Below are positions 2,882 to 30,293 of a DNA stretch of 36,380 nucleotides, piece by piece. Each line of letters starts with the position of its first letter. Position 1 is the first letter of the stretch. The position numbers and the translations under genes were made by a program. This DNA is from a virus: the IMG/VR virus record IMGVR_UViG_3300030102_003105, positions 1 through 36,380 of that record; one strand, given 5' to 3'. The notes beneath the pieces are model-generated. The model did no database searches, was not told where the DNA came from, and saw nothing but the letters and a program-made list of their open reading frames with translations.

Positions 2882-3430
2882 GTGAGTGTATTTCAAAAAC
2901 TAAAAGACGTTGACATCTCTAAATTAGCAGAGCAAAAAGGTAAGTTTGATTACTTATCTTGGGCGCATGCTGTAAGAGAGGTGTTAAAAGTATTTCCAGA
3001 AGCAACTTGGGAAGTACATGAATATGATAATATGCCTTATATGCAAACAAATACAGGCTATTATACCAAAGTAAGTGTAACAATTGAGGGTATTACAAGA
3101 ACTCAGATTCATCCTGTTCTTGATAATAAAAATCAAACTATTGATGCACCAAATGCTTTTCAGATAAATACATCTATTCAAAGATGTTTGGCAAAAGCAA
3201 TAGCGCTACATGGTCTTGGTCTTTCATTATTTGCTGGTGAAGATTTACCAGACAATATAACTGATAAGCAAAAGAAAGAAATAACTAAGTTTGCTAATCA
3301 AGTTAAAGACGAGGCTGTTAAAAAGTCTATGTTAGATGCTATTGAAAATGGCAAAGTAAACGAATCAAACTATGCAAAAAGTTTGGAACATTGTAAAACA
3401 ATTATTAAAAATCAAAAAGGAGATAAGTAA
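2882..3430 (+). CDS. Single-strand annealing protein, DUF1071/Sak3 type (182 aa)
   Basis: This is a predicted ssDNA-annealing recombinase (Rad52-like superfamily) that pairs complementary single strands in phage recombination. Family features are KFDYLSWAHAVREV at residues 21-34 and the conserved second half with TSIQRCLAKAIALHGLGLSL (97-116) followed by FAGEDLP. The C-terminal 55 residues are a Lys/Glu-rich helical tail. The start is GTG 2882 behind AAAGGAG. It sits between the Cas4-like nuclease and the SSB, the classical nuclease-SSAP-SSB grouping of phage recombination modules, and its stop shares a base with the SSB start (TAATG). Confidence 0.82.
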   Translation: MSVFQKLKDVDISKLAEQKGKFDYLSWAHAVREVLKVFPEATWEVHEYDNMPYMQTNTGYYTKVSVTIEGITRTQIHPVLDNKNQTIDAPNAFQINTSIQRCLAKAIALHGLGLSLFAGEDLPDNITDKQKKEITKFANQVKDEAVKKSMLDAIENGKVNESNYAKSLEHCKTIIKNQKGDK

Positions 3431-4056
3431 TGGCTAACGAAACAGCTAAAATGTTTGACGAAATGTTAAACGATACAGAAAGTTTCTTTGTTCCAGGCGA
3501 AGAGACAGAAGATTCAAAACCTAAGAACGCACCAAACGTAAGAGGTGAGTTTTATGGTCACATGCAAAACTCATCAAATAGAGAAGTATCATGGACAAAA
3601 GATGGTAAAACATTTAAGGCCCTAGTGTACAATTATGAGTTTGTAATTGATGGTAAAAACGAAGAAAATGAATATACAAAAGGTGATAATAAATATTCTG
3701 GCAAAGAGTATGTAGGAAGAACATATAGGTCTAATGGTATTTTTAGATTTTTAGAACCTAAAAAAGGTGATGACTTTGTTTCAAATTCTTCTGGCAATAA
3801 AAGATACTTTCAATTCTGTGAAACTTTAGGTATAGAGATACCTAGAAAAGTGGTAAAGATGAACGGTCAAGATGTTGAGGTTCAGGTGTTACCTCCACTA
3901 AAAGGCACAGATATTGATGGCGCTCCAGCAATTGCAATTATAGATGAGGGCAAATCTTATAAAAATAAAGACGGTCAAGAGAGAACTCCGTATGTTGTTA
4001 AGTTTGTTAAAAAGTGGGAAGGAGGAGTAAAGAAAGATGCAGACATCCCATTCTAA
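3430..4056 (+). CDS. ssb: Single-stranded DNA-binding protein (208 aa)
   Basis: The acidic N terminus precedes a predicted OB-fold-like beta core (about residues 37-195), and the protein ends with the charged tip KKDADIPF. That tip is very close to the DDDIPF tail that bacterial SSBs use to recruit partner proteins. The length is greater than a typical 150-180 residue SSB. The location right after the annealing protein supports the role. The core sequence is divergent from cellular SSB, so the assignment depends on the tail, context and predicted fold. The last 20 bases overlap the following HTH gene in another frame. Confidence 0.7.
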   Translation: MANETAKMFDEMLNDTESFFVPGEETEDSKPKNAPNVRGEFYGHMQNSSNREVSWTKDGKTFKALVYNYEFVIDGKNEENEYTKGDNKYSGKEYVGRTYRSNGIFRFLEPKKGDDFVSNSSGNKRYFQFCETLGIEIPRKVVKMNGQDVEVQVLPPLKGTDIDGAPAIAIIDEGKSYKNKDGQERTPYVVKFVKKWEGGVKKDADIPF

Positions 4057-4192
4057 AAGAAAATACACAAAAGTAGGATGGTCTAGAGAGTTTCTTATCA
4101 ATACCTTGTATGGTTTTGGTATGAAAGGCAAAAGAATAAGTAGAATTGTTGGTGTTTCACCAGCAACAGTCTACAGACACATTAAACGATAA
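4037..4192 (+). CDS. Small helix-turn-helix protein (51 aa)
   Basis: The ATG at 4037 lies inside the 3' end of the SSB gene (20-base overlap), with GGAGGA at 4021-4026. The C-terminal half, GKRISRIVGVSPATVYRHIK, is a clear resolvase/homeodomain-like helix-turn-helix: a helix, the turn residue G before VS, and a recognition helix PATVYRHI. The N terminus is basic. The size allows only the DNA-binding unit, so it is probably a regulator or accessory binding protein and not an enzyme. It is followed immediately by the structured region at 4197-4289, which could be its target or may be unrelated. Confidence 0.7.
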   Translation: MQTSHSKRKYTKVGWSREFLINTLYGFGMKGKRISRIVGVSPATVYRHIKR

Positions 4193-4196
4193 ATAA

Positions 4197-4289
4197 TGTG
4201 GGAGATTTTGTATATCGCGAGAATACATAGGTGGTTTGTTATGTGGTCCTCTCTACCACTGTTCTTTTCTACCTTTCAAGTCTCCCACA
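4197..4289 (+). ncRNA. Candidate structured RNA or leader element
   Basis: The ends TGTGGGAGATTT (4197-4208) and AAGTCTCCCACA (4278-4289) pair over 12 positions with one G-U. Inside are a GTAT/ATAC hairpin (4210-4213 with 4223-4226), a GTGGT/ACCAC hairpin with pyrimidine loop CCTCTCT (4243-4247 with 4255-4259), and AGGT/ACCT (4229-4232 with 4271-4274) that can enclose the second hairpin. This gives a closed multibranch fold. GC by hand count is about 42%, above the surrounding genes. ATTTT follows, and then the ribosome site AAAAGGAG of the next gene. It could be a free ncRNA, a 5'-UTR regulator or an elaborate terminator. I recognise no known family. Confidence 0.55.
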
Positions 4290-4308
4290 ATTTTAAAAGG
4301 AGAATAAT

Positions 4309-4467
4309 ATGCAATGTTGGCATTGTAAATCAGAATTAATTTGGAATGGAGACCATACGTATGAAGAGTATAGTAAAGAAGGAGAAGGTGTTGTTAGCAA
4401 CTTTACTTGTCCAGACTGTGAATCTTATTACGAATGTTATCTACCATTAGGAGGTCAAAATGATTAA
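4309..4467 (+). CDS. Small zinc-ribbon protein (52 aa)
   Basis: Two CxxC knuckles, CWHC (residues 3-6) and CPDC (about 34-37), are separated by about 27 residues, the spacing of a one-domain zinc ribbon. An extra cysteine follows (YECY). The start ATG 4309 has AAAAGGAGAA directly upstream. The stop region overlaps the next gene's ATG by eight bases. Small phage zinc ribbons often bind nucleic acid or host polymerase, but no partner is indicated here. It is the first gene after the structured element at 4197-4289 and so is its most likely regulatory target. Confidence 0.7.
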   Translation: MQCWHCKSELIWNGDHTYEEYSKEGEGVVSNFTCPDCESYYECYLPLGGQND

Positions 4468-4561
4468 TTGGTTAAACTTTATAGTCTACTCATCTATGTT
4501 TATTTTAGGTGTGGTTTGTTGGGCTTCAATAATTGTTTACGTTGTAGGTTATTTTAGATAG
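4460..4561 (+). CDS. Small single-pass membrane protein (33 aa)
   Basis: The ATG at 4460 overlaps the zinc-ribbon stop and has TTAGGAGG upstream (4448-4455). The peptide is one long hydrophobic segment (FIVYSSMFILGVVCWASIIV and beyond) closed by a single arginine. Composition and size fit a one-helix inner-membrane protein. It could be an early membrane-acting peptide or a small holin-like factor, but early position argues against lysis. No family is recognised. Confidence 0.5.
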   Translation: MINWLNFIVYSSMFILGVVCWASIIVYVVGYFR

Positions 4562-4569
4562 GAGAGGTT

Positions 4570-4713
4570 ATGAAAACTAAAAATCGTATGCACAGTAGAA
4601 TAAAAAAAATTAGAAGGGAACTACAAAAAAGCCCTAATGGTTGGCCACTTTGTGTAATGGTCGGAGCAGAGTATACATCCACTAGAACTTATAGGAAGAT
4701 GCGTGATGCGTAG
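4570..4713 (+). CDS. Small basic hypothetical protein (47 aa)
   Basis: The ATG at 4570 has TAGGAGAGG at 4559-4567. The N-terminal half is strongly basic and helical (KNRMHSRIKKIRRELQK), followed by PNGWPLCVMVGAEYTSTRT. The charge suggests nucleic-acid binding. No family is recognised. Its last bases overlap the beginning of the following gene, typical of this coupled early operon. Confidence 0.6.
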   Translation: MKTKNRMHSRIKKIRRELQKSPNGWPLCVMVGAEYTSTRTYRKMRDA

Positions 4714-5056
4714 AAATGAAATGCAAGCCTTGATGGGTAGGATAATGGATAAAATAGCAGAAACTCGCGATGCAGGTCAAAAAGAGTATGCAAGAGATGT
4801 AGATAATGTATTTGCTAATTTTGAAAGAGTCGCTTCTTTTTGTGGTGTTAACAGAGAGAAGGCATTACTTACTTATATGATTAAACATGTTGATGGGCTT
4901 TGCGCTTACTCAGATGGACATCATTCTCAAAGAGAAGATGTTAGAGGTAGATTAACAGATATTATAGTATATTGTATTTTATTTTGGGGTATGGTTGAAG
5001 ATAATGAAAGTATGTTAAACGACAAGCATTTTCCAGGATATGAAGACAAACTATAA
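4706..5056 (+). CDS. Conserved phage protein with an all-alpha MazG/DUF1599-like pattern (116 aa)
   Basis: The protein is all helical. NVFANFERVASFCGVNREKA, KHVDGLCAYSDG and SQREDVRGRLTDIIVYCILF resemble phage proteins of the DUF1599/nucleotide-modification and MazG-like type, where E/D/K-H residues on helices bind a nucleotide and metal. Here the candidate set is E in NFER, KHxD and RxxD. The start is ATG 4706; a GTG at 4703 gives one more residue. It overlaps the previous gene by eight bases and the HNH gene by 17. Nucleotide handling is an inference from resemblance and is not proven. Confidence 0.6.
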   Translation: MRRNEMQALMGRIMDKIAETRDAGQKEYARDVDNVFANFERVASFCGVNREKALLTYMIKHVDGLCAYSDGHHSQREDVRGRLTDIIVYCILFWGMVEDNESMLNDKHFPGYEDKL

Positions 5057-5519
5057 AAAGTGTAGACATTGTGAAAAAGTTTATAAAATATCCGATTTCC
5101 ATTGGAAAATTAAAAAGCAAGGCATTAGGTCTAATAAGTGCAAAACTTGTACAAATCAATACTCTAAGGCCCATTATGAACTACATAAGCACAATTACAT
5201 TGAAAGGTCTAGGGAGAATACTAAAAGGTATAGAAAGGATGCTCGGGACTTAATTTATGAGTTTAAACTTAGTAATCCTTGTTCTTCTTGTGGTGAAACT
5301 AATCCTATTGTCTTGGAATTTCATCATCTGGACCCGAAAAAGAAAAGAAATGATGTCTCGAATATGGCAACACATGGATATTCAATCGAAAGCATTGAAA
5401 AAGAAATCGAAAAGTGTATCATACTATGTGCAAACTGCCATAGGAGAAAGACAGCAAAAGAACAAAACTGGCACTCTCACAAACTCACAGAAAGGAGTAA
5501 ACAATGGGAAGAGCAATAG
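5040..5519 (+). CDS. Free-standing HNH endonuclease with zinc knuckles (159 aa)
   Basis: An N-terminal zinc ribbon (C8, C11, C34, C37) is followed by a basic helical linker. The HNH/McrA-type nuclease has C81-x2-C84, the EFHHLDP strand (H95, H96, D98), an N-helix region (residues 104-124) and the closing C130-x2-C133-H134 (LCANCHRRK). The His-Asn-His core uses the beta-beta-alpha metal fold to cut DNA. Phage enzymes of this form are often mobile homing endonucleases; others act at packaging. This one lies far from the terminase, wedged among early genes with a 17-base overlap into the upstream gene and a poor ribosome site, which favours a homing-type insertion. Confidence 0.85.
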   Translation: MKTNYKKCRHCEKVYKISDFHWKIKKQGIRSNKCKTCTNQYSKAHYELHKHNYIERSRENTKRYRKDARDLIYEFKLSNPCSSCGETNPIVLEFHHLDPKKKRNDVSNMATHGYSIESIEKEIEKCIILCANCHRRKTAKEQNWHSHKLTERSKQWEEQ

Positions 5520-5974: not shown

Positions 5975-7321
5975 ATGCAAGAGATAGCTGATGTTGCCAC
6001 AGAGGATGTGGTATTAGGGAGTGTTATCTTATACCCAAAAGAATACAGTAGAATAGCGCCATATGTACCAGATAGAAGAGTTTTTACTCAGATAAAGGCT
6101 AAAAACTTATGGGACAAACTAACTGATATGGTGAAAGAGAACAAAACTATAGATTTGCCGATACTTTGTTCATCTCTTACAAGAGAGGATAATTTAAACG
6201 GTATAACTACAGGATATTTAGTAGATATAACAACTGACACAGGCAGTTCTGGTATGATAGAGGCTTATGCTCAGATAATTTATGAGAAATATCTACTGAG
6301 AAAAATTGTACAGGAGACAGAAAGTATCAGACAAAACGCACTACACAAAGGTAGCGATGTTTATACTTTGATTAATCAGGCACATTCTCTTATGGGAGAA
6401 CTTATAAGAGTAAAGCCAGGTGAAAAATTTACTATTGATAAGGCTATGTCAGAGACCTTGAACACTATGCAAGAAGGTAACAAGAAGATGATTAAGACAG
6501 GCTTTAAAGAGATAGATGGACTTGCAGGAGGGCTAACAAGAGGTGAGATAAGTATAGTTGGCGGTAGACCGGGGCATGGTAAAACAACTTTTCTTGTCAA
6601 CCTCTTAGCCTCCCTGATAAAAGGCGGTTATAAAGTCGCTATGTTTAACAGGGAGCTGCCTAACAGTGAGGTTATAAAAAAATTAATATGCATAGAGAAT
6701 CCAAGATTAAACTATAGAGATGTTAGGAAAGGTATTGTTGATAAAACAAACGTAGGATTTATCAATGAACTTAAAAAAGCATCTAGGAAAATAGCTGATA
6801 TATATGGGGCAGACAATTTTATTATGTTTGATAGTATCAGAGATTTAACAAAAACTGCATCAGAGGTTAAAAAATTTGAACCAGATGTTATTATAGATGA
6901 TTACATACAACTTGTAACGCCAGCGGGAAGAGAAACTGAAAGAAGATTACAACTTGAACGTATCTGTAATGAGTATAAGTGGTTAGCAAAAGAATCAAAC
7001 TGTGCAGTAATATTAGCATCACAACTTAACAGGTCATTAGAGTCTAGAAATAAAGAAGCTAAAAGGCCACAACTATCTGATTTAGCAGAATCGGGAGCTA
7101 TAGAACAAGTAGCAGAGAATGTATTTTTTGTATACTATTCTTATAAAGTAGACCCGTCAATGCACTCAAAGAATGAGATAAGATTAATCGCAAGTAAAGT
7201 AAGATATGGAGAGTCATCTGAACTTACACTTCACTACAATGGTGATATATGTACAATTTATGATAACTGGTCCATACCACATGCAAAGGAACTAGATGAA
7301 ACAAAAGAATTACCATTCTAA
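5975..7321 (+). CDS. dnaB: DnaB-type replicative helicase (448 aa)
   Basis: This is a hexameric 5'-3' helicase at the phage replication fork. The N-terminal helical domain (about residues 1-140, beginning EDVVLGSVILYP) is followed by a linker and the RecA-like core: TGFKEIDGLAGGLTRGE, Walker A GRPGHGKTT (197-205), Walker B VIIDDY (305-310), the sensor stretch ILASQLNR (346-353) and LSDLAESGAIEQVAENV (367-383). The length of 448 is normal for DnaB. The start ATG 5975 has AAAAGGAG upstream. It overlaps the resolvase gene by 26 bases. The C-terminal end KELPF resembles the SSB tip. No primase fusion or intein is seen. Confidence 0.95.
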   Translation: MQEIADVATEDVVLGSVILYPKEYSRIAPYVPDRRVFTQIKAKNLWDKLTDMVKENKTIDLPILCSSLTREDNLNGITTGYLVDITTDTGSSGMIEAYAQIIYEKYLLRKIVQETESIRQNALHKGSDVYTLINQAHSLMGELIRVKPGEKFTIDKAMSETLNTMQEGNKKMIKTGFKEIDGLAGGLTRGEISIVGGRPGHGKTTFLVNLLASLIKGGYKVAMFNRELPNSEVIKKLICIENPRLNYRDVRKGIVDKTNVGFINELKKASRKIADIYGADNFIMFDSIRDLTKTASEVKKFEPDVIIDDYIQLVTPAGRETERRLQLERICNEYKWLAKESNCAVILASQLNRSLESRNKEAKRPQLSDLAESGAIEQVAENVFFVYYSYKVDPSMHSKNEIRLIASKVRYGESSELTLHYNGDICTIYDNWSIPHAKELDETKELPF

Positions 7322-29502: not shown

Positions 29503-30293
29503 TATGAAAGTGTCCCATGATTTGAACCATGATGGTCTTTTACACCGCCTGTACCGCTTTCTCCAGATGTATTTGTTTCAACATCTAAATTCCACCATGA
29601 TACTAAGTTTGTTTTTTCGCTGTCTGTTAATCCAGCATAATTCTTGTTCATTATTGATTTAATTTGTGGTTGTGTTAAGCATGAACTATAAGCAAACACG
29701 TTAGCTAAATAACAATTTGTATGGTAGTTGAAACTCCCACCTGATGCGTACCCTGCTCCAAAAGTTTTAAAAGTAAATTTAGTTGATTCTAAATGGTCAT
29801 TATTATCTTGACTACCATCTATACTATCTGTTGAATCTACTGTGATGGTCCCTAGTAAAGCTCCATCTATATAGCAATCAATCTTTGAAGAATCAGATGC
29901 AAAAACTAAATGTTTCCACGTATTTAATGGTAGATTACTATTACTACCAAATGAATAGTACCCCCCATCTTCTTCTCTGTAAAATATATGAGTACTACTT
30001 CTATTTATACCAAAGTTTTTAGTTGTAGCATTTGTACCAAATAACCAATCATAACTATCTTTAGTTAAGTAGTTTATCCAACATCCTACTGTATAAGTTG
30101 TTGCGCTTGTAAAAACATTAGATGACATTACTACATAATCATCAATACCATCAAAAAATGCAGCACCATCACTACATGGTACCACACTACCTGCATTGTA
30201 TTGATGTTTTAGTACGAGGCTATCTGTTACTATACCAGGTGTTATAGGTTTAGAAATTGCTCTTGATAAATTACTACCTAATCCTAAAGGCAT
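29502..30293 (-). CDS. LamG-domain virion protein (263 aa)
   Basis: A short N-terminal arm (MPLGLGSNLSRAISKPI) leads into one LamG-type jelly roll: AAFFDGIDDYVVMSS, TTYTVGCWINYLTKD, LNTWKHLVFASDSSKIDCYI, DGALLGTI, and the closing CLTQPQIKSIMNKNYAGL with WWNLD. The arm may anchor the protein to the capsid or tail while the lectin-like domain faces outward. It is a clear paralogue of the larger LamG protein encoded next. Its ATG lies two bases from the previous stop. Glycan binding is inferred. Confidence 0.72.
   Translation of the reverse strand: MPLGLGSNLSRAISKPITPGIVTDSLVLKHQYNAGSVVPCSDGAAFFDGIDDYVVMSSNVFTSATTYTVGCWINYLTKDSYDWLFGTNATTKNFGINRSSTHIFYREEDGGYYSFGSNSNLPLNTWKHLVFASDSSKIDCYIDGALLGTITVDSTDSIDGSQDNNDHLESTKFTFKTFGAGYASGGSFNYHTNCYLANVFAYSSCLTQPQIKSIMNKNYAGLTDSEKTNLVSWWNLDVETNTSGESGTGGVKDHHGSNHGTLS

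Follow-up and report, generated by a model that had tools for sequence, protein, structure and literature searches.

A conserved three-way-junction RNA in the early operon region of an uncultured phage family, with a possible C4-like antisense role

Introduction

Does a 93-nt intergenic stretch in the early region of an uncultured phage, which an initial annotation had singled out as a candidate multibranch RNA, encode a genuine structured RNA, and if so, what kind of RNA might it be? To our knowledge, the small structured RNAs described in phages come largely from model systems, and for most of them a function has yet to be assigned. The DNA analyzed here, referred to throughout as the window, is an IMG/VR record of 36,380 bases. 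We find that the candidate, hereafter called element A, is a conserved RNA of about 93 nt that is read from the + strand, that folds into a three-way junction of stems P1, P2 and P3 and that has early genes of the same orientation on either side in an uncultured phage family. Its structure is established from comparison of homologues, and for its function we propose several readings of differing likelihood.

Results

Element A folds as a three-way junction

The features of element A and its neighbors are collected in Table 1. In a comparison with dinucleotide-shuffled controls, a check that the initial annotation had proposed, the minimum free energy of the element is -31 kcal/mol versus -18.3 +/- 3.1 kcal/mol in the shuffles (z of -4.08), with 1 of 200 shuffles folding equally well. 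When folded within a 201-nt context, the three-way-junction fold of 4197-4289 is still the minimum. The closing stem of 12 bp described in the initial annotation is present, at exactly 4197-4208 with 4278-4289, and the two internal hairpins that had been fitted into one 93-base fold correspond to the P2 and P3 arms inside of P1. The further closing helix that had been proposed is also present, at 4229-4234 with 4269-4274, but it comprises 6 bp rather than 4 bp. The estimate that the GC content of about 42% exceeds that of the surroundings is likewise accurate, with 41.9% in the element versus 33.3% across the window, which places the element at the 96th percentile of 93-nt stretches. Finally, the short U-run and the ribosome site that had been described do follow the fold. 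Similarly strong 93-nt folds are found in the window at 6526-6618 (+), 2896-2988 (+) and 30121-30213 (-), where they lie inside of, or overlap, long ORFs.

Table 1. Coordinates of element A, its parts and its flanking features in the window
Feature	Position	Strand	Remarks
Element A, whole three-way-junction RNA	4197-4289	+	Fold z, homologues, covariation, G-U 53 versus A-C 4
P1 5' strand, UGUGGGAGAUUU	4197-4208	+	Pairs with 4278-4289, 12 bp
P1 3' strand, AAGUCUCCCACA	4278-4289	+	Fold and structure-blind covariation
P2 hairpin, immediately 3' of P1 5' strand	4209-4227	+	5 bp, bulged A4214, 2 bp, GCGA loop
P3 arm, whole	4229-4274	+	Inner stem 4243-4247/4255-4259
P3a 5' strand	4229-4234	+	6 bp with 4269-4274; two-sided changes in 6 of 6 pairs
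P3a 3' strand	4269-4274	+	Pairs with 4229-4234
P3 internal loop, U-rich 5' side, GUUUU-type motif	4235-4242	+	Aligned in A1, seen in A2
P3b hairpin, 5 bp	4243-4259	+	Apical loop CCUCUCU, 4248-4254
P3 internal loop, pyrimidine 3' side	4260-4268	+	UUCUUUU here, UCCUUUC in many relatives
SSB-like gene	3430-4056		Query for relatives
Upstream gene, 51-aa helix-turn-helix (HTH) protein	4037-4192	+	HTH_7 at 5.6e-5 and other HTH models, just below cut-offs
U-run	4291-4294	+	Present in window
Ribosome site of next gene, AAAAGGAG	4295-4302	+	Not consistently sequestered
Downstream gene, zinc-ribbon-like 52-aa protein (CxxC pairs)	4309-4467	+	ATG at 4309

In the main subfamily, termed A1, the P1 core GGGAGA is nearly invariant and its GGG forms the start of P1 in most members. 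The exceptions to this core keep the pairing intact, as observed with GGAAGA/UCUUCC in L011, with GGCAGAG/CUCUGCC in the second copy of L213 and in a further subfamily termed A2. The P2 hairpin is capped by a GCGA tetraloop of the GNRA type (4217-4220), and this loop is GCGA or GUGA in every A1 member that was retrieved by way of a protein. The internal loop of P3 is asymmetric and U-rich, and its pyrimidine strand (4260-4268) is complementary to Shine-Dalgarno-like sequence, a complementarity that may contribute to what the RNA does. The CCUCUCU apical loop of P3b is kept among close relatives only and is variable across the wider family.

Homologues define two subfamilies

Searching IMG/VR with the SSB-like gene recovered 13 close relatives, with a wider alignment bringing the set to 21 loci in all. 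Element A is located immediately after the HTH gene in all of the SSB-type relatives that have downstream DNA (20 of 20), with the 21st locus, L289, ending too early. The element is present in one copy per record and rarely in two. A covariance model trained on 12 close sequences (R1) also finds diverged copies in L043-L048, with scores of 37-42 bits and E values of 1e-6 to 2e-5; these loci were retrieved solely by way of a different neighboring protein of 117 aa. A pattern scan together with R1 and a further model, R2, adds L098, L121, L149, L153, L160, L190, L212 and L213. As the scans fix the letters GGGAGA, CGYGAGR and TCTCCC, these pattern-only members, along with a set of Prevotella loci described below, cannot serve as independent support for the conservation of these letters. 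Pattern matches in Corynebacterium and Planctomycetes that are without the P2 hairpin were taken as chance.

Subfamily A2 was found by R2 in L051, L053, L057, L071, L092, L251 and L253, and by sequence in L262. In these members the P1 strands are AUGAGCAGUA/UACUGCUCAU or a close variant, which replace GGGAGA/UCUCCC, while the GUGA hairpin and a GUUUU/UCCUU-type internal loop are retained. The A2 scores are modest at 20-39 bits, and these members are probably, rather than certainly, related to element A. The second copy in L213 scores weakly with R1 and is scored by R2, to whose training set it belongs. In L072, L256 and L263 the P2 helix of the A2 element has an insertion of about 36 nt relative to L071, with the surrounding element intact. 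No relative among named phages was found by DNA, using 3400-5100 of the window and elements A and B of L044 (element B is described below), or by the SSB or portal protein.

Compensatory changes support the helices and the active strand

In a structure-blind MAFFT alignment (A5), two-sided changes are observed in 10 of the 16 P1 and P2 pairs, including 5 of the 6 tested pairs of P2, and 91% of the cells are paired. None of 500 shuffles match what was observed, and slid controls reach at most 5 pairs. A model-fitted alignment (A6) exhibits two-sided changes in 23 of 27 pairs with 94% of the cells paired. We also used a tree-based null in which the substitutions of each branch are re-placed randomly along the tree. 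Relative to this null, there are 14 compensatory events in A5 versus 1.5 expected (null maximum 6), 42 in A6 versus 3.1 expected (null maximum 8) and, among the protein-retrieved loci alone, 15 versus 1.2 expected (null maximum 5). Broken pairs are far below the same null. An all-pairs R-scape-style test, which has low power with 16-25 sequences, gives 4 significant pairs in A6, with none outside of the structure, and 0 in A5. A lack of compensatory changes in homologues had been named in the initial annotation as a ground for refuting the RNA, and strong compensatory change is observed. The pair types further show 53 G-U pairs versus 4 A-C mismatches on the + strand, and this large excess of G-U pairs indicates that the active molecule is the + strand RNA. 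The + strand also outfolds the - strand in 31 of 32 members, with L262 left out of this count.

The element overlaps a 47-codon frame from ATG 4196, and strong coding conservation of this frame had been named in the initial annotation as grounds for discarding an RNA. Such conservation is not observed. Five of 11 sequences (L002, L005, L006, L010 and L018) lack the ATG at 4196, indels of 1-2 nt shift frames between close relatives, and every frame is stopped in some relative. By its coordinates this frame is also in frame with the HTH gene, and readthrough of the HTH stop into it was considered and rejected, since in L002, among other relatives, this frame runs into a UGA inside of the element.

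Neighboring genes vary while the RNA is retained

Element A is surrounded by a replication module that includes a Sak annealing protein, the SSB-like gene and a DnaB helicase. In the window the stop codon of the HTH gene is 4 nt upstream of P1, and the element is followed in turn by genes for the 52-aa CxxC protein, for proteins of 47 and 117 aa and for an HNH protein; no antirepressor-like gene was matched among these genes by Pfam or PHROGs. The start of the 52-aa CxxC gene is 20 nt from the element in the window and in close relatives, and this gene does not adjoin the element in L011 or in distant members, with L043-L048, L149, L153, L160, L098 and L212/L213 having other downstream genes. 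Across the family the neighbors include HTH and HNH genes, RuvC with a small ORF, a Zn-type protein, tRNA-Cys and tRNA-Arg, and this variation favors a standalone RNA. Since the neighboring genes (HTH, HNH, RuvC, tRNA) change, and the RNA stays in each of the loci just listed where the zinc-ribbon gene is absent or replaced, we rejected the reading that element A is a leader belonging to the zinc-ribbon gene alone.

The position of the element relative to gene ends follows its context. When preceded by an HTH gene, P1 begins a few bases past the stop codon, and when preceded by an HNH gene, P1 overlaps the stop codon. A copy in L213 is located about 10 nt 3' of a tRNA-Cys gene, and a candidate element in L152 is located 1-2 nt 3' of a tRNA-Arg gene. 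Region 389-627 of L213 is a small cluster with a strong hairpin (389-438), tRNA-Cys (445-517) and the second copy of element A (526-627). Other, unrelated-looking structured elements are found in the same slot at the HTH or HNH stop codon in L042 (after 3570), L084 (after 946; = L269) and L068 (after 1147). The slot at gene ends may thus be a place for standalone RNA modules of early operons.

Relation to known RNA families

None of the 4227 families of Rfam 15 reached its gathering score in the window, and relaxing the search to E<=10 brought up nothing beyond noise, as would fit a new RNA; the relatives gave only tRNA plus one c4-2 RNA elsewhere in a Prevotella-type phage (L184). The absence of an Rfam match, taken with the strong compensatory change in homologues, bears out the suggestion of a new phage ncRNA made in the initial annotation. 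A preQ1-II riboswitch match (RF01054) at 4214-4311 was rejected as noise, having 17.7 bits versus a gathering score of 47 and an E value of 1.2, and its pairing does not track the covarying helices of element A.

The nearest plan in Rfam to that of element A is the C4/c4-2 clan (CL00128). Both have a P1 stem that closes a three-way junction of P1, P2 and P3, and in both P2 directly follows P1 and has a bulge on its 5' side, a short stem and a GNRA tetraloop. Both are also small phage RNAs that have a P3 with an accessible loop and that are embedded, presumably so for element A, in a longer operon transcript. The c4-2 consensus has a P1 of 10 bp, a P2 composed of 4 bp, a uA bulge, 3 bp and a GAAA loop, and a P3. 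Element A differs in having a GYGA rather than a GAAA tetraloop, a 1-nt bulge in A1, the GGGAGA core of P1 and the GUUUU/UCCUUUC internal loop of P3. In addition, unlike C4, it has no ant/icd-type target gene downstream and occurs in one copy, rarely two. Neither the C4 (RF01695) nor the c4-2 (RF02944) model matched the element, even at E<=10, when run on the record of the window and on 19 others with related copies; the sole match across those 20 records is the known c4-2 RNA of L184, which in turn is not matched by R2. Because the plan matches but the C4/c4-2 models score nothing, element A is better regarded as an RNA that may work like C4 than as a C4 RNA.

Among other phage RNAs, the putRNA of HK022, a nascent-RNA antiterminator, is about 70 nt long, has two stem-loops and is found immediately 3' of early promoters (PMC9378689). 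It resembles element A in being a structured RNA that a phage encodes in an early operon and in its length, and it differs in having two adjacent stem-loops versus a three-way junction. GOLLD and ROOL are also phage-encoded structured RNAs, the role of which is unclear. Both are far larger than element A, and neither was matched by Rfam here; their names and structures follow PMC12286853.

Discussion

The C4 RNA of phages P1 and P7 has three stem-loops in about 77 nt, and RNase P releases it from a longer transcript by cleaving at a GGW at the 5' end of P1 (PMC5320573). It represses by means of a loop b' that partly covers the ribosome site, with a loop a' giving specificity (PMC5320573). Because the pyrimidine strand of P3 and the variable apical loop are the same two kinds of loops, we tentatively prefer, at somewhat less than an even chance, the reading that element A is an excised, stable RNA of the early operon that acts like C4 in trans on ribosome sites. 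Element A would be transcribed as part of the early operon, would fold after the ribosome clears the stop codon upstream, and would then be cut out by host processing enzymes to give a stable small RNA. The constant core, consisting of P1, the bulged GYGA hairpin P2 and the junction, would serve as a scaffold, and the pyrimidine strand of P3 together with the apical loop would pair with ribosome sites that are rich in purines, on mRNAs of the phage or of its host, and this pairing would lower translation of the target mRNAs. The heptamer AGAGAGG, which is complementary to the CCUCUCU loop, is found at several early start codons; its start-codon count (9 of 42) ranks 35 of 128 purine heptamers and does not rise above the background set by the purine richness of ribosome sites. 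This lack of start-site enrichment counts against C4-like action, as do the absence of any C4/c4-2 score and of an ant gene.

Nearly as likely is that element A is a cis-acting intercistronic element of a polycistronic early mRNA, which could protect or mark an mRNA end, guide processing, or modify the elongating RNA polymerase for put-RNA-like readthrough into the accessory gene cassette. Such a role is in keeping with the location of P1 at, or a few bases from, the upstream stop codon in both HTH and HNH contexts, with an orientation that is invariably sense relative to the flanking genes, with the other structured elements that occupy the slot in L042, L084 and L068, and with conserved unpaired loops that suggest a bound protein or tertiary fold. 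However, the element also follows tRNA genes, which have no stop codon (L213 copy 2 and L152), a terminator-like U-run is not conserved, and the putRNA of HK022 has its two stem-loops, about 70 nt in length, near early promoters (PMC9378689). A broader and still tentative reading, which we regard as possible, is that element A represents a widespread undescribed class of phage RNA in which the core of P1 and a bulged GYGA hairpin is reused in unrelated phages at gene ends and tRNA genes, often with element B and possibly repeated in Prevotella-phage leaders, and which would act in trans by an undescribed mechanism.

The remaining explanations appear improbable to very different degrees. A riboswitch, attenuator or thermosensor for the adjoining zinc-ribbon gene is unlikely; the 20-nt spacing to the start codon, which the window has in common with close relatives, would suit such a role, and the UCUCC at the 3' side of P1 could in principle pair with the GGAGA of the ribosome site. 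Nevertheless, the RNA is retained in L011, L043-L048, L149 and L160 where the downstream gene differs, and a P1 of 9-12 bp is too stable for a switch helix. The ribosome site is also mostly open in the ensemble, with the pairing observed in L005 and L010 not being common to relatives, and sequestration was therefore rejected. The alternative pairing of GTGG (4231-4234) with CCAC (4256-4259) from which the initial annotation had derived a switch is possible in this sequence, but it is lost in relatives such as L011 and L044, the latter having GGAGUG versus AGCCCA in P3. We thus abandon the switch as well as the attenuator that had been suggested, the latter given that the U-run is not conserved and that the RNA persists next to differing downstream genes. 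Even less probable is that the element acts at the level of DNA, folding in single-stranded form as, for example, an origin of replication or a site of recombination. The location in a replication module with Sak, SSB-like and DnaB genes and at module boundaries is consistent with such a site, and the frequent G-U pairs and rare A-C mismatches, as well as the better folding of the + strand, argue against it; on the G-U and A-C counts we rejected both a DNA fold and an antisense strand. Lastly, single sequences from AT-rich genomes can fold by chance, and a U6 run follows P1 in L002 and L010, as an intrinsic terminator would have. The covariation, the frame-breaking indels of 1-2 nt and the lack of a U-run in L007, L012, L043 and L044 leave next to no likelihood for chance structure, protein-coding sequence or a plain intrinsic terminator.

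For phages without a cultured relative, this work supplies a covariance model and a defined core, together with several subfamilies, a partner RNA and a fixed genome place at an early-gene stop codon. If element A is C4-like, then antisense control of superinfection or early-gene silencing would extend far beyond P1 and P7. If it is not, then early operons of phages would contain a new class of RNA.

Additional structured elements

The partner RNA, element B, is a second undescribed RNA with the form GGUAA..UUACC-CUCGUCGAAAAGAGAA-(variable GC stem)-GACUC that ends at the ribosome site of the next gene. It follows element A in many A1 and A2 members, being located directly after it in L043, L044-L048, L121, L057, L071, L092, L251, L253 and L262, and it occurs alone in L252, L260, L261, L267, L268 and L270. 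Its 16-nt core is present in 27 IMG/VR stretches, at least 2 of which (L258 and L266) are unrelated coding-type sequence, and no Rfam match to element B was obtained among the loci scanned.

Prevotella-type phages (L097, L109, L140, L150, L184, L193, L197 and L198) have a large multi-hairpin leader that precedes a small ORF, and the Prevotella MAG loci L226-L229 also matched. The leader contains tandem modules of P1 plus a GYGA hairpin and is not in Rfam; the likeness of these modules to element A may be convergence, since much of the sequence they have in common was imposed by the search pattern. The sequence GCUAAAC-N6-UAG is present upstream and again beside the start codon, with its complement between the two. 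As judged by eye in L097, L109 and L193, the N6 differs between phages and matches within each, a pattern that suggests mutually exclusive pairing or an immunity-type switch.
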